A stretch of DNA of 24,924 nucleotides from a virus: IMG/VR virus record IMGVR_UViG_3300042556_000915, positions 1 through 24,924 of that record, one strand, 5' to 3'. A model generated the notes under the pieces. That model made no database searches and was not told the DNA's origin. It saw nothing but the letters and a program-made list of their open reading frames with translations. Position 1 is the first letter of the stretch. Every line of letters starts with the position of its first letter. This document shows positions 14,283 through 21,507 of this stretch, one piece after another. A program made the position numbers and the translations under genes.

Positions 14283-14365
14283 GGGGGGAAATAACTATGA
14301 AAAATATTTAAGGTGAGTAGAGGGGGTAGGGGGGGGTGTGCGAATTAAGCATAGGGGGGTCCCCC
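14283..14365 (+). other. G-tract cluster with quadruplex potential
   Basis: Runs of six, five, eight and six G occur at 14283-14288, 14322-14326, 14329-14336 and 14354-14359. The last run is directly followed by T and five C (14361-14365), forming a short inverted repeat. On the plus strand four G-tracts in about 77 nt could fold into a G-quadruplex, although two of the loops are long. It borders the DnaA-box cluster. Nothing else in the window has comparable G-runs apart from one terminator stem at 19686. Confidence 0.45.
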
Positions 14366-14366
14366 T

Positions 14367-14563
14367 TTATCCACAGGTTATCCACACCTGTGTGTATCTT
14401 GTGAATAACTATTACATTTTTTTGCATTGTTACATCAAATACATGTAATAAAGTTAAATATCCGAATGCTGTCTATTCAGTAACCATTCTCAAGACCCCT
14501 AACCCTGTGGATAACTTGTGGATTATTGTTCACCTGTTGTTCACCTATTGTTCACGTGTTCAA
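14367..14563. other. Candidate replication origin: DnaA boxes plus 11-bp iterons
   Basis: Perfect DnaA boxes TTATCCACA occur at 14367-14375 and 14378-14386 (plus orientation, 11 bp apart). The variant TTATTCACA is at 14400-14408 (minus). A perfect box at 14506-14514 and a near-perfect one (TAATCCACA) at 14517-14525 are both minus, again 11 bp apart. Three direct repeats TTGTTCAC[C/G]T follow at 14526, 14537 and 14548, exactly 11 bp apart. The 14409-14465 segment between box groups is strongly AT-rich and could be the unwinding element; it includes ATTACAT/ATGTAAT inverted copies. Consensus TTATNCACA is established for bacterial DnaA. Use of host DnaA by this phage is inferred from box number, phasing and position. 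Confidence 0.68.
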
Positions 14564-14593: not shown

Positions 14594-14625
14594 ACTCTCA
14601 TAACTAAATTGCACTAAAAGTACCA

Positions 14626-14785
14626 AGCAGGAGACGGGGCCGAATCCTCTCGCACTTGGCAACTAGAGACCCAAGCAATACGCCGAAAAGGCAATAACTA
14701 AACAGGGGGAAACATCCGAGTGAATCGGGGACATCGTGCCCCGTTTCGCTTGATGTCTTAAGGCCTTAAGTCTTACGGCGTCAAG
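14626..14785 (+). ncRNA. Structured 5' leader of the early operon
   Basis: Several short complementary stretches are visible. CCAAG (near 14628) can pair with CTTGG (near 14657), GCC-GAAAA-GGC forms a small hairpin near 14681, and CGGGG/CCCCG flank an 8-nt loop near 14726. A stem CTTGATG/CGTCAAG at 14749-14785 encloses the perfect palindrome CTTAAGGCCTTAAG. The last is the first member of the CTTAAG leader family described further downstream. Segments GGGGGAAAC and GAGTGAATC vaguely recall conserved stretches of the ydaO-type c-di-AMP riboswitch, but the 3' conserved GTCAGCTAACC block is not present as such. I therefore call it only a structured leader. It ends at the start-associated AAAGGATGA (14798-14806). 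Confidence 0.45.
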
Positions 14786-14810
14786 TGATACCAATCGAAA
14801 GGATGACCAA

Positions 14811-15470
14811 ATGAAAACAGCAACACTCGCCCCAATAGTAGGGGCCTTAAGTGAGGCATACGCCACAATCCAACAGCGCGAAGGCTTACCGCCTGCCGTA
14901 GTGATTGTGAAGCGAGACCCTAGGGCATGGGGACACTTCACGCCCTCCAAATTGTGGAGCGCGAAAGATGGCGAGAAACTTCACGAAATTATGATAAGCG
15001 GTGAGAATCTCGCACGCGGTGCCCGCGCCGTTCTAGGGACCCTGCTACATGAGGGGGCACATGCGAAGAATCACGCCGAGGATGTAAGAGGGACCGACAC
15101 TAATGGCCGACATAATAAGAAATTCAAGGCACAGGCGGAGGCCTTCGGCCTCACAATAACCGAGAATAAAAACGGCTGGAGTGAAACCGAGGTGAGCGAC
15201 CAGTGCGCCGAGAGGTGGGCCGATGTTCTCGACCTAATCGAACAGGGCATAACAATCTACGCCCAAGGGATGGCAACAGTTAAGACCAAGGGAACAAGCG
15301 GAGGGACCGAGGGAGGCGAAGAGGGAGGCGAAGACACGCCGAAACCAAGAAACAAGAACAACCTCAAAGCAACCTGCAAATGTGAGAACATAATCCGACT
15401 AAGCCAAAAGGTCTTAGAAATCGGGGTGACTTGCAAGAAATGCGGAGAAGATTACAAAGCCACCGAGTAA
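14811..15470 (+). CDS. SprT-like zinc metalloprotease with C-terminal zinc ribbon
   Basis: The 219-aa product contains the metalloprotease motif HEGAH (residues 80-84) within LGTLLHEGAHAKNH, with a downstream GRHNKKF that may supply the third metal ligand. The C-terminus has a CKC...CKKC zinc ribbon (Cys189, 191, 208, 211). A Gly/Glu-rich linker (GTSGGTEGGEEGGED) joins the two. This is the SprT/Spartan-like layout; family members cut DNA-bound proteins, and the phage substrate is unknown. It is the first rightward gene, behind the early promoter and the start-associated AAAGGATGA sequence. By hand count its first 120 nt after 14820 are about 56% G+C against about 42% in sampled late-gene lines, which hints at separate ancestry. 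Confidence 0.75.
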   Translation: MKTATLAPIVGALSEAYATIQQREGLPPAVVIVKRDPRAWGHFTPSKLWSAKDGEKLHEIMISGENLARGARAVLGTLLHEGAHAKNHAEDVRGTDTNGRHNKKFKAQAEAFGLTITENKNGWSETEVSDQCAERWADVLDLIEQGITIYAQGMATVKTKGTSGGTEGGEEGGEDTPKPRNKNNLKATCKCENIIRLSQKVLEIGVTCKKCGEDYKATE

Positions 15471-15485
15471 AGAGGGGGGAAGATT

Positions 15486-15515
15486 CAGCAGGGGTTCGCC
15501 CCTGCTGTTTCTTCT
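15486..15515 (+). terminator. Rho-independent-like terminator after the SprT-like gene
   Basis: Nine-bp perfect arms CAGCAGGGG and CCCCTGCTG flank a TTCG loop (15486-15507), followed by TTTCTTCTTC. A stable UUCG-capped stem with a T-rich tail is a good intrinsic terminator, possibly partial so that downstream genes are made in lower amounts. The CTTAAG leader hairpin begins within its tail. Confidence 0.7.
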
Positions 15516-15552
15516 TCTGTCTTAAGACAGAAGAACACAACAAAAAGGATGG
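15512..15552 (+). promoter_or_regulatory. CTTAAG-hairpin leader, copy 2
   Basis: A perfect 24-bp palindrome at 15512-15535 is centred on CTTAAG (arms TTCTTCTGTCTT / AAGACAGAAGAA). It is followed by AAAGGATGG (15544-15552) and the ATG of the 88-aa gene at 15559. The core CTGTCTTAAGACAG is shared with copies at 15865, 16319, 16579, 16975 and 17969. The outer arm sequence here (TTCT/AGAA) differs from the others yet remains complementary. Confidence 0.7.
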
Positions 15553-15558
15553 TTCAAA

Positions 15559-15825
15559 ATGGAAACAAGACAACCAACAGCACAAGAGCAATTTATCGAG
15601 GATTTTCTTCTAGTCGCTCAAAACGATGAGGCCACGTTCTTCTCAATTTCTGAGGTGTTAATAGGTTACGAGGAAAACCACTACGAAGGCGGGCAAAGAT
15701 TAGAAGAATGGGTGGAGATTCATTACGCCCAAGAACTAAAGGAAAATTTGCTACTCTCTCAGTTACTCAGGGGCTGGGGTGGCGACACCTGGGCAAAAAT
15801 TGCCAAGGAGTTTCTAACGGATTAA
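15559..15825 (+). CDS. Hypothetical small acidic protein, 88 aa
   Basis: The product METRQPTAQEQFIEDFLLVAQNDE... is acidic and probably helical, with no membrane segment and no motif I recognise. The start follows the AAAGGATGG start-associated sequence at a normal spacing. It stands alone between two hairpin leaders, each preceded by a GC-rich hairpin, so it looks like an independently regulated cassette in the early accessory region. Function unknown. Confidence 0.7.
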   Translation: METRQPTAQEQFIEDFLLVAQNDEATFFSISEVLIGYEENHYEGGQRLEEWVEIHYAQELKENLLLSQLLRGWGGDTWAKIAKEFLTD

Positions 15826-15837
15826 GTCGGAAGGTTT

Positions 15838-15859
15838 GGCAGGGACTTAGTGCCCTGCC
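15838..15859 (+). terminator. Terminator-like hairpin after the 88-aa gene
   Basis: Arms GGCAGGG and CCCTGCC (7 bp) enclose an 8-nt loop, followed by TTTCCTCCTG. The T-tract is short, so termination may be partial. It is placed exactly as the 15486 hairpin is relative to its CTTAAG palindrome, which suggests the two elements travel together. Confidence 0.5.
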
Positions 15860-15864
15860 TTTCC

Positions 15865-15900
15865 TCCTGTCTTAAGACAGGAACAAAACGAAAGGATGAA
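15865..15900 (+). promoter_or_regulatory. CTTAAG-hairpin leader, copy 3
   Basis: An 18-bp perfect palindrome, TCCTGTCTT joined to AAGACAGGA (15865-15882), is followed by AAAGGATGAA at 15891-15900 and ATG at 15903. Compared with copy 2, the outer pairs change from TCT/AGA to TCC/GGA, keeping complementarity. Confidence 0.7.
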
Positions 15901-15902
15901 AA

Positions 15903-16307
15903 ATGGCAACACGAAGCCGAATCGGAATCAAAGAAGAGAGCGGAGAGGTTCGCTCGATTTATTGCCACTTCGATGGATACCCTGAAGGTGTAGGCGTAGT
16001 GCTTTCCAAGCATTACCAAGACGCCGACAAGGTGCGCCAGTTGATGGATTTGGGAGACCTTTCCACATTAGGGGCAGAGATTGGAGAGGTTCAAGACTTC
16101 AGCAATCCAAACCAAGACTGGTGCCTTGCCTATGGTAGAGACAGAGGAGAGACCGCCACAGAGAGCAGAAAATACGAATCTGAATTCAGTTGGTGGATAG
16201 ACTCAAGTAACGGTTGGATTGACTATCTCTACCTTTACAAAGATGGTAAATGGTCTTATTGGGCTAGTTTAAGATTGCAACACATGCCTGAAGGCACAAA
16301 ACTTTAG
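15903..16307 (+). CDS. Conserved phage protein of unknown function ('MATRSRIGI...YCHFDGYPEGVG' family)
   Basis: The 134-aa product has the signature start MATRSRIGIKEESGEVRSIY, then CHFDGYPEGVGVVLSKHY, GDLSTLG, and a late YGRDRGE. I recognise this as a family that recurs in phages and some bacteria; no biochemical role is known to me. The protein looks like a compact beta-rich domain with a Trp-rich C-terminal part (SWWIDSSNGWIDYLYLYKDGKW). The start is supported by the AAAGGATGAA leader just upstream. It is bounded on both sides by CTTAAG hairpin leaders, indicating a single-gene cassette. Confidence 0.75.
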   Translation: MATRSRIGIKEESGEVRSIYCHFDGYPEGVGVVLSKHYQDADKVRQLMDLGDLSTLGAEIGEVQDFSNPNQDWCLAYGRDRGETATESRKYESEFSWWIDSSNGWIDYLYLYKDGKWSYWASLRLQHMPEGTKL

Positions 16308-16313
16308 TGCGTG

Positions 16314-16382
16314 CCAATCATCTCCTGTCTTAAGGCAGGAGTTGGTTGGGGTGAACTAAATCAGTACACCTAGAAGGATGAA
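16314..16382 (+). promoter_or_regulatory. CTTAAG-hairpin leader, copy 4 (two abutting hairpins)
   Basis: Hairpin I (16314-16349) pairs CCAATCA with the TTGGTTGG arm through one T-T mismatch and then CTCCTG with CAGGAG around CTTAAG. Hairpin II starts at the next base (16350-16370): GGTG/CACC with inner ACT/AGT, and AACTAA within the loop side. AGAAGGATGAA (16372-16382) follows immediately, then ATG at 16387. The zero-nucleotide junction between the hairpins would allow coaxial stacking. Confidence 0.7.
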
Positions 16383-16386
16383 AAAA

Positions 16387-16563
16387 ATGGATAATGTATT
16401 AGAGTTAGAAATCTACCCAAGCGGTTGGCTAGATTTCAACCTTGCTCGTGAGTTGTATGTTGGTGTTGACTTGAAGGCTGTTGTTGTGGTAGTTTTGGCA
16501 GTAGCAACAATTAAGTTCATAGCACCACGAATTAGAAAAGCAAGAAGAATTACACGCCGATAG
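16387..16563 (+). CDS. Small single-span membrane protein, 58 aa
   Basis: The product MDNVLELEIYPSGW... has one hydrophobic segment at about residues 26-46 (VGVDLKAVVVVVLAVATIKFIA). A strongly basic tail (PRIRKARRITRR) follows, predicting the C-terminus inside the cell. There is no signal cleavage site. I chose the ATG at 16387 by analogy with the other leaders; an in-frame ATG at 16378 lies inside the ribosome binding sequence. It could be a holin-like or membrane-anchoring accessory protein, but nothing in the sequence decides this. Confidence 0.65.
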   Translation: MDNVLELEIYPSGWLDFNLARELYVGVDLKAVVVVVLAVATIKFIAPRIRKARRITRR

Positions 16564-16570
16564 TTGCGGA

Positions 16571-16641
16571 TGGTTGGTGTTCTGTCTTAAGACAGGACAT
16601 CTTCCACCTACAACTAAACAGATGTAGGAAGAAAGGATGAA
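16571..16641 (+). promoter_or_regulatory. CTTAAG-hairpin leader, copy 5 (two abutting hairpins)
   Basis: Hairpin I (16571-16606) has basal TGG/CCA, a TT/TT internal loop and a 13-bp apical stem ending in CTTAAG. One T-G wobble lies in the GTTCTG/CAGGAC arms. Hairpin II (16607-16628) follows without a gap: CCTACA/TGTAGG with a loop starting ACTAA. GAAAGGATGAA is at 16631-16641 and ATG at 16646. ACATCT (16597-16602) could alternatively pair with AGATGT (16620-16625), which would disrupt both hairpins and is a possible switch. Confidence 0.72.
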
Positions 16642-16645
16642 ATAA

Positions 16646-16786
16646 ATGAGTAAGGAAGTATGGGCCTCATCAGTAAGCGCAGAAATGACTAAAGGAATGA
16701 CGGATAACGAGATAGAAATACTTATCGCTGATTTAGATGACGCGGTAATGCTAGTTTGCCAAGACTACGGGATAGGGGCTAACTAA
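16646..16786 (+). CDS. Hypothetical small acidic protein, 46 aa
   Basis: Reads MSKEVWASSVSAEMTKGMTD... and ends VCQDYGIGAN. It is acidic and helical, with no recognised domain. The start is well supported: GAAAGGATGAA of leader copy 5 ends 4 nt upstream. Its TAA overlaps the ATG of the next gene (TAATG), so the pair is coupled. Function unknown. Confidence 0.7.
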   Translation: MSKEVWASSVSAEMTKGMTDNEIEILIADLDDAVMLVCQDYGIGAN

Positions 16787-16962
16787 TGTTAGATGAAACT
16801 ACGGAAGGCGACATTCATAAAATGATTGACCTTTTACATGACACTAATGTAAAACTTTATTTATGTCAGATAGATGATTACGTTCCTTATTACAGGGATG
16901 GATTAAGACGTGTTCAAGATTTCTTATTGAGTTTAATAAACGAGGGACATGTTTCTGATTAA
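16786..16962 (+). CDS. Hypothetical small protein, 58 aa
   Basis: Reads MLDETTEGDIHKMIDLLHDTN... and ends SLINEGHVSD. It is mostly helical and acidic, with one cysteine and no membrane segment. Translation is coupled to the 46-aa gene through TAATG. The stop lies 8 bp before the basal stem of the next CTTAAG leader. No family is recognised. Confidence 0.68.
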   Translation: MLDETTEGDIHKMIDLLHDTNVKLYLCQIDDYVPYYRDGLRRVQDFLLSLINEGHVSD

Positions 16963-16967
16963 AGGTG

Positions 16968-17034
16968 GATGATTAACTTCTTGTCTTAAGACAGGAAGTT
17001 TTTCACCTGCAACTAAGCAGGAAGAAAGGATGAA
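16968..17034 (+). promoter_or_regulatory. CTTAAG-hairpin leader, copy 6 (two abutting hairpins)
   Basis: Hairpin I has basal pairs TGA/TCA (16970-16972 with 17003-17005), a TT/TT internal loop and a 13-bp apical stem centred on CTTAAG with a single T-G wobble. Hairpin II (17006-17021) abuts it: CCTGC/GCAGG with loop AACTAA. GAAAGGATGAA (17024-17034) precedes ATG at 17039. The internal loop lies at the same distance from the centre as in copies 5 and 7. Confidence 0.75.
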
Positions 17035-17038
17035 CAAG

Positions 17039-17080
17039 ATGTACGATTACAAGATAAGAATAGGAGTAAATAAGCGATGA
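17039..17080 (+). CDS. 13-codon leader ORF, relic or duplicate of the 17252 gene start
   Basis: ATG at 17039, directly behind the GAAAGGATGAA leader, reads MYDYKIRIGVNKR and stops at TGA (17078-17080). Its stop overlaps the next gene's ATG (ATGA). The first eight residues MYDYKIRI are identical to the start of the 55-aa protein at 17252, and 24 of the first 27 bases match. It may be a truncated duplicate, or a short peptide whose translation delivers ribosomes to the 17077 gene. An in-frame ATG at 17030 would add MNK. Confidence 0.5.
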   Translation: MYDYKIRIGVNKR

Positions 17081-17259
17081 ACTTTTATTACATAACACTT
17101 AACTATGAATACTTTACAATAAATACTTGTGTTGACGCAGACACAGAAGAAGAGGCCAAGCGGCGGGCTTTGGGGTTATTAGATACTCAAGGTATTAACT
17201 TAGGTACCCCGCCTTATGGTTATGAAGTCGAGTTGGAAGGTAGTTACTCTGATGTATGA
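17077..17259 (+). CDS. Small protein, 60 aa, beta-strand/helix type
   Basis: Reads MNFYYITLNYEYFTINTCVDADTEEEAKRRALGLL... The pattern of an alternating hydrophobic strand followed by an acidic A-DxEEEA helix occurs in many small phage proteins. The 62-aa protein at 18758 has the same layout. Its start overlaps the 13-codon ORF stop by 4 nt and its end overlaps the 17252 gene by 8 nt, so it is embedded in a coupled chain. Function unknown. Confidence 0.68.
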   Translation: MNFYYITLNYEYFTINTCVDADTEEEAKRRALGLLDTQGINLGTPPYGYEVELEGSYSDV

Positions 17260-17419
17260 CTACAAGATAAGAATACGTGAAGCCAACGGGTGCTATGAAA
17301 CTTTCAACGAGTCTAATGGTGAGTTGGCTTTCGCTGATACTCTAACCGAGATAGCCAAGTACGCTATTAGTAATGGTTTAGGCTTAGAGTTTGAAGATTG
17401 GGATGATGATGATGACTAA
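17252..17419 (+). CDS. Hypothetical acidic protein, 55 aa
   Basis: Reads MYDYKIRIREANGCYETF... and ends EFEDWDDDDD. I took the start at 17252 because MYDYKIRI is also the start of the short ORF at 17039 and because the 8-bp overlap with the preceding gene is modest. An in-frame ATG at 17216 would give an implausible basic extension inside the upstream gene. The poly-Asp tail is encoded by GATGATGATGAC, which also supplies start codons for the next gene in another frame. No family is recognised. Confidence 0.65.
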   Translation: MYDYKIRIREANGCYETFNESNGELAFADTLTEIAKYAISNGLGLEFEDWDDDDD

Positions 17420-17744
17420 TCAAATTCCACAGACATTACTTGACCGCCTTTGGTATGAAGTTTTTGGCAGTAGTATGACGCCAAGATTTCTTGAAGAGTT
17501 AAAGTTTATCAACGGAAATTGGGAGTCTGCTGACGCTGTAAAAATTTTATTTAGTGAGGATGAAGACGAGGACAAAATAAAAACTAAAACTATCACACAG
17601 ATGGATTTGTTTTGGGCCTGGTTGCAATTAGTAGAGAGTGGATGTTATCATTGTGGTAGTTACTCAGTTGGTGACCTTGAATCTCTTGACTCATGTTCTC
17701 ACATAATAATTCAACAAGCATTGTGGGGGGAGGTAAAATACTAA
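17403..17744 (+). CDS. Hypothetical protein, about 113 aa
   Basis: The start is ambiguous. ATG codons at 17391, 17403, 17406, 17409 and 17412 are all in frame because they overlap the poly-Asp codons of the previous gene. I report 17403. The product (TNQIPQTLLDRLWYEVFGSS...) is acidic and has aromatic-rich segments (MDLFWAWLQLVESG) and a CYHCGSY pair that might bind metal. Its TAA overlaps the next ATG by one base. No domain is recognised. Confidence 0.62.
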   Translation: MMMMTNQIPQTLLDRLWYEVFGSSMTPRFLEELKFINGNWESADAVKILFSEDEDEDKIKTKTITQMDLFWAWLQLVESGCYHCGSYSVGDLESLDSCSHIIIQQALWGEVKY

Positions 17745-17956
17745 TGGCACTACCAATCTTAGAGAAGCACACACAAATGGAGTTAACAGTTAATGTATCC
17801 GCTTGTCAGATTTTTGAGAATGAAGGAAGGTACACGCTGTATTCGGTGGAGGTGTATGACTCAAACAGCGATAGCGTGGTACCTCTAGGCTCGTCTCAGT
17901 TAGAAAATCTAGCCGAGGCAATAGCCGAAGCGTTCTCAACACTTCGCATAAATTAG
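17744..17956 (+). CDS. Hypothetical protein, 70 aa
   Basis: Reads MALPILEKHTQMELTVNVSAC... and ends AEAFSTLRIN. It has strand-rich middle segments (RYTLYSVEVYDSNSD) and a C-terminal acidic helix. The start at 17744 overlaps the previous stop (TAATG) and is preceded by GGGGGGAGG about 10 nt upstream, a strong ribosome site. A longer reading from 17693 would begin inside the upstream gene and is less likely. Leader copy 7 begins right after its stop. Confidence 0.66.
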   Translation: MALPILEKHTQMELTVNVSACQIFENEGRYTLYSVEVYDSNSDSVVPLGSSQLENLAEAIAEAFSTLRIN

Positions 17957-17959
17957 TTG

Positions 17960-18041
17960 CGGATGATTGAAGTTGTGTCTTAAGACAGAACTTCTTTCAT
18001 CTGTACCTACCGTGGGTATGGAATAAAAATAAAAGGATGAA
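17960..18041 (+). promoter_or_regulatory. CTTAAG-hairpin leader, copy 7
   Basis: Hairpin I is a 13-bp apical stem (17969-17994) with one G-G mismatch. Below it is a TT/TT internal loop at 17967-17968 and 17995-17996, then a basal stem GGATGA/TCATCT reaching about 17961-18002. Hairpin II (18006-18021) pairs CCTACC with GGTA(T)GG but lacks AACTAA. AAAAGGATGAA (18031-18041) precedes ATG at 18046. The 5' sequence TTGCGGATG is shared with copy 5. Confidence 0.7.
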
Positions 18042-18045
18042 CAAG

Positions 18046-18231
18046 ATGACGATAAGAGAAGTTGAATTACCGCTTACTAACTTACAGATTAAATTACATA
18101 AGGAACTTAAAGTGGTAGAAAAGTGGCACGATAATACAGATGGTTGCGATAGTAACTCTCACTACACCGAGGGCAAGGCAGATGGTATTCGCCTAGCCCT
18201 CAAACTAATTGAAAAAGAAAATAAACGATGA
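18046..18231 (+). CDS. Hypothetical protein, 61 aa
   Basis: Reads MTIREVELPLTNLQIKLHKEL... and contains a Trp-His-Asp stretch (EKWHDNTDGCDSNSHYTEGKADG) followed by a helix. The start follows AAAAGGATGAA of leader copy 7; an in-frame ATG at 18037 lies in that sequence and would only add MNK. It is the first of a chain joined by ATGA overlaps. No family is recognised. Confidence 0.66.
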   Translation: MTIREVELPLTNLQIKLHKELKVVEKWHDNTDGCDSNSHYTEGKADGIRLALKLIEKENKR

Positions 18232-18461
18232 GTAACAACACCGACCTAGTGAAACATTTCACAGAGTTAGCAACCGCTACACACAGGTTGGCTAATGTAC
18301 TTAATGATACTTGGAGCGTATTAGATGACGACTTCGCGCACAAGGATGCACTTGCGGATGCCATAGATTTGTTTTACAATGGTGCCCGTGACCTAGACAG
18401 CCTTGCGTTCATGTTAATACTTGACGCAGAGGATGACATAAAGAGAGGGGAAAAGAAATGA
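18228..18461 (+). CDS. Hypothetical helical protein, 77 aa
   Basis: Reads MSNNTDLVKHFTELATATHRL... It is an all-helical acidic protein ending in DDIKRGEKK. The start overlaps the preceding stop by 4 nt (ATGA), and GGGGAAAAGAA before its own end serves the next gene. There is no membrane segment or motif. Function unknown. Confidence 0.68.
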   Translation: MSNNTDLVKHFTELATATHRLANVLNDTWSVLDDDFAHKDALADAIDLFYNGARDLDSLAFMLILDAEDDIKRGEKK

Positions 18462-19734: not shown

Positions 19735-19820
19735 AAGAATTAGGTTAGTAGTTGTTGCGTGTAAGTTATTCATCCTTTCTTACGCAAACCTCCTCCTCTC
19801 CGACTGCTAACCTAATTCTT
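19735..19820. repeat. Long inverted repeat enclosing an inverted start-associated sequence
   Basis: Perfect 14-bp arms AAGAATTAGGTTAG (19735-19748) and CTAACCTAATTCTT (19807-19820) are followed inward by AGT/ACT pairs. Further in, an inner stem TTGCG..TAAG pairs with CTTACGCAA. The apex holds the reverse complement of AAAGGATGAA (19769-19778), the start-associated sequence otherwise found only before early genes. On the minus strand that ATG opens a 40-codon frame running back to about 19656, which I do not call. The element sits between the terminator and the exonuclease gene. A degenerate CTTAAG half-site (GCCTTAAGACAGG, near 19823) and the ribosome site AGGAGAGG follow. Confidence 0.6.
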
Positions 19821-19846
19821 TTGCCTTAAGACAGGAGAGGAAACCT

Positions 19847-21439: not shown

Positions 21440-21447
21440 AAAGATAT

Positions 21448-21493
21448 GAGTAAGGGAAAGACAGTTGCGGAGCCGTCTCTCCCTTACTCTTTT
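21448..21493 (+). terminator. Terminator-like hairpin between nuclease and helicase genes
   Basis: Arms GAGTAAGGGA and TCCCTTACTC (10 bp) extend inward past one mismatch to AGAC/GTCT with a 12-nt loop, and a TTTTCTC tail follows. The stop of the zinc-ribbon gene is 9 bp upstream, and the helicase ribosome site CGGAGGAG begins right after. It probably lowers transcription into the helicase block. Confidence 0.65.
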
Positions 21494-21507
21494 CTCGGAG
21501 GAGATAA

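Follow-up and report, generated by a model that had tools for sequence, protein, structure and literature searches.

In the early operon of an uncultured phage, the intergenic leaders contain an RNA strand with two mutually exclusive partners, and, judging by the alignment of relatives, both exclusive folds are preserved by covariation. Upstream, this switch strand would pair with GCGG and the preceding gene's stop codon, giving one long imperfect hairpin; alternatively, it would pair downstream with GCAGG to form a second hairpin, hairpin II, before the next AUG. We propose, with a confidence that falls just short of even, that each leader is a translation-linked two-state RNA at a gene junction, switched by the upstream terminating ribosome.

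The window, by which we mean the whole stretch of DNA analysed, is a virus record of 24,924 bases that encodes a terminase, a portal protein, a WhiB-like regulator, an exonuclease, a DnaB-like helicase and a primase. Its nearest cultured relatives were the Planktophila phages LanE43AprE7/F5, whose host is a Ca. Nanopelagicales strain, and Streptomyces phages, which makes an actinobacterial host likely; it is via the WhiB gene together with these relatives that likely actinobacterial hosts were assigned to the uncultured phages described here. The early rightward operon extends from 14811 to 18461. The junctions listed within it are of two kinds, overlaps and gaps of 70-91 nt, and there is a leader in each gap. 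Between the divergent gene blocks, positions 14340-14560 contain G-run stretches, a repeated GTTCACCTATTGTTCAC and TTATCCACAGG-like boxes, and are reminiscent of an origin of replication or a control region.

Anatomy of the leaders

Three of the leaders, numbered 4 to 6, had been described in an earlier note as pairs of abutting hairpins, and this much can be read directly from the sequence. The second hairpin follows hairpin I with a zero-nt junction, the stems differ, AACTAA stands at or in the loop, and AGAAGG or AGAAAGG comes within 3 nt after hairpin II. Folding of all leaders gave, besides the two hairpins, a second possible structure, namely one long extended hairpin. The switch strand that follows hairpin I (consensus C-CUGC-nn-CUAA) pairs either upstream, in this extended hairpin, or downstream, where CCUGC..GCAGG makes hairpin II. 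From its base, the extended helix consists of P0, a 2x2 internal loop (J), P1a, an A.C mismatch, P1b (3 bp), a second internal loop, a variable P1c and the apex. P0 is formed by the stop codon segment of the upstream gene, consensus UUAG, with CUAA, and P1a by GCGG/CUGC. AACTAA is mostly the 3' strand of P0, which shows up as a loop sequence in drawings of hairpin II. Where hairpin I ends and hairpin II begins is variable, as the same CC can pair in either. In the 26 leaders aligned below, the 5' arm of hairpin II overlaps the extended helix without exception (26/26), and hairpin II ends 16-23 nt before AUG in 22/26, about where the 30S footprint begins.

All leaders of the window lie on the + strand. 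The operon-first leader, before ORF 14811 (14714-14803), has neither an upstream gene nor a stop-codon partner; it was predicted by folding to form two hairpins, the second long and stable, and it corresponds to L001_3704, L005_3672 and L002_11569 in relatives. The leader before ORF 15559 (class B; 15470-15535) has an extended helix at 15470-15523 with AAGA/TCTT as P0, an upstream stop TAA at 15468-15470 and a hairpin II, TTCTTCTGTC-TTAA-GACAGAAGAA, at 15512-15535; its palindrome alone was scored by the covariance model presented below. That before ORF 15903 (class B; 15821-15882) pairs ATTA with TAAG in an extended helix at 15821-15876 (stop TAA 15823-15825), or forms hairpin II, TCCTGTC-TTAA-GACAGGA, at 15865-15882; it lay outside the model seed and was recovered by the model at E 1.7e-3. 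Leader 4 (16303-16370) has hairpin I at 16314-16349. Its P0 segment UUUAGU at 16303-16308 (stop TAG 16305-16307) pairs with ACUAAA at 16355-16360, or else hairpin II forms at 16350-16370 from GGTG (16350-16353) and CACC (16367-16370), with AACTAA (16354-16359) in the loop. The two folds came out at -31.5 and -31.6 kcal/mol, and this non-seed leader was matched by the model at E 3e-3.

Leaders 5, 6 and 7 were seed members, scoring 68.2, 67.5 and 66.5 bits, respectively. In leader 5 (16560-16628), the extended helix spans 16560-16617 and the stop TAG at 16561-16563 pairs with CTA; hairpin I is closed by TGG (16571-16573) and CCA (16604-16606), and hairpin II consists of CCTACA (16607-16612) and TGTAGG (16623-16628), AACTAA (16612-16617) beginning at the last stem base. 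Leader 6 (16959-17021) has its extended helix at 16959-17016, with the stop TAA at 16960-16962, hairpin I closed by TGA (16970-16972) and TCA (17003-17005), and hairpin II made of CCTGC (17006-17010), the loop AACTAA (17011-17016) and GCAGG (17017-17021). In leader 7 (17953-18022), the extended helix spans 17953-18010, the stop TAG at 17954-17956 pairs with CTA, and hairpin II, TCTGTACCTA-CCG-TGGGTATGGA at 18000-18022, is without AACTAA. Behind leader 5, at 16629-16639 (+), lies the Shine-Dalgarno segment AAGAAAGGATG, complementary to the actinobacterial 16S 3' tail UCCUUUCU; it is unpaired in both predicted folds, and a segment of the same kind follows each leader. Incidentally, a very short reading frame (MYDYKIRIGVNKR) at 17026-17080, behind leader 6, overlaps the next start, and a reading frame near 17254 begins with the same residues, which suggests a partial duplication.

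Across the window, AACTAA itself was weakly enriched (31 sites vs 23 expected, reached by 6/100 shuffles), so that its fixed place in the leaders is what matters. Two AACTAAA copies that the note had assigned to an early leader do exist, at 14602 and 14696, but not within a leader of this kind. As for the pairing of ACATCT with AGATGT, put forward as an alternative in leader 5, the two strings are present (16597 and 16620), but the fold is not plausible and was rejected, costing about 17 kcal/mol when forced (-16.1 vs -33.6).

Covariation and the place of the stop codon

Relatives were gathered by scans with the leader pattern, the helicase and the terminase, which yielded 26 leaders from ten IMG/VR contigs, mostly fragments, of two related phage clades. 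The same leaders occurred in the near-clade contigs L001, L002, L005 and L086, and in the second-clade contigs L136, L141, L142, L147, L151 and L178, whose terminase is about 55% identical. The register of the 26 leaders was fixed by hand and checked with a MAFFT alignment, slid controls and non-seed model matches; leader 4, L001_4742, L001_5010 and the operon-first leaders do not fit the fixed register and stand outside the counts. A covariance model built from 18 of the 26 aligned leaders found leaders in both clades, with E-values down to 7e-22. One non-seed match (L142 861-919, E 1e-8) has P0 UUAG/CUAA and hairpin II UCUGAG/CUCAGA, without the GUCUUAAG apex.

Beyond this set, the model gave no match below E 0.8 on a further 75 loci (909 kb), a single match at E 0.48 in Streptomyces phage FlowerPower, and only partial matches to its apex (best E 0.04) in Planktophila phage LanE43AprF5 (OX376641, terminase 54.8%). 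A genome collection searched by terminase returned one match, a MAG contig without leader match. With the 14811 protein as a probe, the single sequence found no match and the alignment only contigs already in the set. A degenerate DNA pattern, GCGGANGRTT..GAAAGGATGA, had ten matches, of which one was a new relative (L086), one was known and the rest were judged unrelated by eye. A permissive Rfam 15 scan of the window gave 3 chance-level matches, none at gathering score.

Two other structures were noticed in the window. The open junction at 21440-21507 (68 nt, before the helicase gene) has a strong hairpin, AGTAAGGGA..TCCCTTACT, just past the stop codon, with no match to the leader covariance model. 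Upstream of ORF 19847 (19736-19846), the two arms of a large inverted repeat (AGAATTAGGTTAG / CTAACCTAATTCT) flank UCAUCCUUUC, which is exactly the reverse complement of GAAAGGAUGA, the Shine-Dalgarno motif of the leaders. This 10-mer is kept in L001, L005 and L086 despite different flanks, and L177, from the other clade, whose leaders have AAAGGAG, shows CUCCUUU at the corresponding place. It is possibly an anti-Shine-Dalgarno element, or possibly a chance likeness to the 16S tail.

In the MAFFT alignment, 92.7% of the cells of the extended helix were paired, as compared with 73.8% after shuffling and 37-49% when slid; 75 cells were double-changed, vs 23.5 in shuffles, and double changes occurred in 15/22 pairs. 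In the hand register, with 21 non-redundant leaders, P0 was paired in 75/84 (shuffled mean 53.5, maximum 70 in 20,000 shuffles) and P1a in 79/84 (shuffled mean 65.4, maximum 76), although leaders within a clade are related, so that the shuffles overstate independence. J reached 11/42, no better than shuffled, and is therefore a true internal loop. The earlier idea of a structured RNA with two abutting hairpins, whose variable stems are kept in relatives, was borne out: hairpin II covaries in every leader, with inner pairs at 80/80 (shuffled mean 41.1, maximum 62). Its stems include CCTGC/GCAGG, CCTGC/GCGGG, CCTGG/CCAGG and CCTACA/TGTAGG, as well as CCTGAG/CTCAGG, CCTAGG/CCTAGG, GGCTAA/TTAGCC and CGCTAA/TTAGCG. 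A clean P0 double change separates the counterparts L001_6142 (CUAG/CUAG) and L086 (UUAG/CUAA). In the L136_4289 and L147_9151 leaders, which precede similar genes (MSRKDYQLIADIFG.. and MTRKDYNEISRLFG..), all three strands have changed together, and read UCGG:CUGA:UCAG in the former and CUAG:CUAG:CUAG in the latter (upstream:switch:downstream).

The stop codon lies at one same offset in the 5' strand of P0 in 20/26 leaders, and overlaps or abuts P0 in most others. Upstream of these P0 stops, the open frame extends over 56 codons or more in 18/20; it covers only 5 in L005_6420 and only 9 in L147_9151, where the real stop may lie slightly upstream. UAG accounts for 13/20 of the P0 stops vs 14/81 among the remaining genes on the same contigs (P 6e-5). 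Complementarity between the stop window and the switch strand averaged 4.00 vs 3.08 for the stop windows of other genes, a value reached by 0/20,000 draws. Against UAG-only control windows, in a register-free comparison, the excess was modest (P about 0.01), and the use of UAG as such accounts for much of the effect. It may also be that P0 overlaps the stop codon merely owing to the compactness of the junctions.

Energy balance and possible functions

According to model energies, the two folds of the 26 leaders differ by a median of +0.4 kcal/mol (range -5.6 to +5.8), with 17/26 within 3 and several leaders lopsided by 4-6 kcal/mol. At the positions shared by both folds, hairpin II has 77 Watson-Crick pairs and 3 wobbles, vs 44 Watson-Crick pairs, 20 wobbles and 16 mismatches in the extended helix. 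The third pair of P1a is G.U in 15/16, and the next position is mostly A.C. In terms of the energy model, these wobbles and mismatches are a conserved weakening of the longer extended helix, which brings its predicted energy near that of the short hairpin.

One of the two exclusive, conserved partners is the very place where the upstream ribosome stops, an arrangement suggesting that the fold is set by the terminating ribosome. We infer that a ribosome terminating on the upstream gene would be the natural switch: with the stop codon and the next bases blocked, energy prediction leads to hairpin II. Indeed, when the first 16 nt were masked, as by a terminating ribosome, the predicted probability of hairpin II was at least 0.77 in 24/26 leaders. 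Hairpin II would be the fold that allows the next gene to be expressed well; the operon-first leader, with its long stable second hairpin and no gene upstream, hints in this direction. The extended hairpin may lower expression, possibly via cleavage of the long hairpin or as a poor 30S standby site. The Shine-Dalgarno segment was predicted to be free in both folds, with an accessibility of 0.7-0.95 in most leaders without ribosome, and it was less accessible in some leaders under the ribosome mask. Since it is accessible in both predicted folds, no output follows from the structure. A wider proposal, which we hold only tentatively and consider possible more than probable, is that the leader is a self-contained module at most open junctions of the early operon, in which the upstream stop codon serves as one strand of a three-strand switch, giving serial termination-sensing control. 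If true, each terminating ribosome would reset the fold before the next gene, amounting to control of the whole operon.

The main rival to such a sensor is that the leaders are putative RNase III-type processing signals, a reading we find unlikely but of appreciable weight. The extended hairpin would be cut and the two folds would be successive; the freed 3' strand would refold to hairpin II and cap the 5' end of the downstream mRNA, and hairpin I would cap the upstream 3' end. With about 26 bp-steps and conserved internal loops, the helices at non-overlapping early junctions would suit such a role, and the 22 consensus pairs plus internal loops make a long imperfect junction duplex of about two turns, of the sort expected for RNase III. 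The zero-nt junction between hairpins I and II and the nearly fixed distance of hairpin II from the start point the same way, and cleavage would account for a Shine-Dalgarno segment free in both folds. Yet processing has no need for an energy balance between folds, and leaves the UAG bias and the fixed stop offset unexplained. In phage T7, the early RNase III sites are long imperfect hairpins, interrupted by internal loops and placed at one early gene junction after another; the leaders share this hairpin type but add a conserved, energy-balanced second fold and a fixed stop-codon register. Complementarity of the freed 3' strand to the Shine-Dalgarno segment (for instance CUUUCA/UGAAAG in L001_5624) was considered as a mechanism and dropped, being found by eye in only some leaders.

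Improbable in our view, though less so than the two readings that follow, is a site for a phage or host RNA-binding protein that co-regulates the early genes and recognises either the apex or the module of A.C mismatch and 2x2 internal loop. The apex motif GUCUUAAGRC / GUCUUAAG, found in both clades, caps hairpin I in 19/26 leaders and hairpin II in 5 more, and J stays unpaired, which speaks for such a site; but the apex is missing in 2/26 and in L142 861-919, may sit in either hairpin, and comes without a candidate protein, and such a site would not explain why hairpin II and P0 exclude each other. The reading of the earlier note, that of a static leader with two coaxially stacked hairpins and a recognised AACTAA loop, retains very little probability. 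Leaders 4-6 and the L147/L151 leaders do have AACTAA at hairpin II, but it is absent from leader 7, and homologous leaders carry AACTAG, AATTAG, GTTTAG, CGTTAA, GGCTAA, CGCTAA or UUAA. The feature that is kept is that CUAA can pair with the upstream stop segment (P0), with clean double changes among the examples. The bare loop was discarded as a recognised motif, because it varies along with that segment, and, on the sequences compared, P0 covariation largely refutes the static reading. Just as remote is the notion that the sites act at the DNA level, as operators or promoters, which has been proposed for the ESAS of cluster K. It could invoke GTCTTAAGAC, which recurs at gene starts and is perfectly palindromic as DNA, but the stem sequences covary rather than stay conserved, the G.U and A.C positions are strand-specific (the model gives about 68 bits on the sense strand and about 37 on the other), and promoter-like matches in the leaders were not above shuffles.

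Relation to known junction elements

Several known systems bear comparison with the leaders. In the trp and erm attenuators, one strand has two exclusive partners and ribosome position is the input. The leaders are alike in their exclusive pairing and presumed ribosome input; they have no leader peptide and no terminator, and they stand at the open junctions of the operon, whereas these attenuators occur once at an operon's head. Terminator-like stems were seen only in hairpin I of the 15486 leader and of the operon-first leader (TTTCTTCTTC and TTTCGCTTGA tails) and in none of leaders 4-7, and a GC-rich hairpin with a U-run, controlled by an alternative fold, was not found.

Translational coupling by RNA unfolding is exemplified by phage f1 VII/IX, MS2 coat-lysis and rpmI-rplT (PMC12548453). 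The likeness is that upstream translation would alter how the junction with the next gene is folded; in silico, the stop codon lies in P0 and the 16-nt mask shifts the leader to hairpin II. In known coupling, however, the structure covers the downstream ribosome-binding site (PMC12548453), whereas the site of the leaders is not sequestered in the predicted folds. The leaders also differ in that the stop codon itself takes part in the pairing, as one of the strands, and that the module is repeated at successive junctions.

The closest analogue is the ESAS/SAS of cluster K mycobacteriophages (PMC3203893) and cluster EF Microbacterium phages (PMC7302621), an inverted repeat just upstream of a strong ribosome-binding motif, which occurs in many copies per genome, in intergenic gaps, with function unknown (PMC3203893, PMC7302621). 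The cluster EF motif, GGGAAAGGACCCC, contains GAAAGGA (PMC7302621). The leaders are alike in place and number. Pope et al. found little support for ESAS RNA hairpins, since changes on the left and right do not compensate (PMC3203893); unlike these, stem changes in the leaders compensate strongly. No upstream stop-codon partner and no second, exclusive hairpin have been described for ESAS/SAS, and the leaders have both. Nor do the leaders carry the conserved 13-bp motif (GGGATAGGAGCCC or GGGAAAGGACCCC), their start-proximal motif being GAAAGGATGA in one clade and AAAGGAG/CAAGGAGA in the other, or conserved half-sites, as their stems vary with compensation and only the apex GUCUUAAG is widely kept. 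The leaders are junction RNA elements that belong neither to ESAS/SAS nor to known coupling by unfolding.

Repeated start-associated elements of actinobacteriophages have been on record since 2011, without a mechanism. The uncultured phages described here have a related-looking arrangement, with exclusive folds backed by covariation and the preceding stop codon built into one of them. This offers a concrete hypothesis for how successive genes may be tuned in a dense phage operon.
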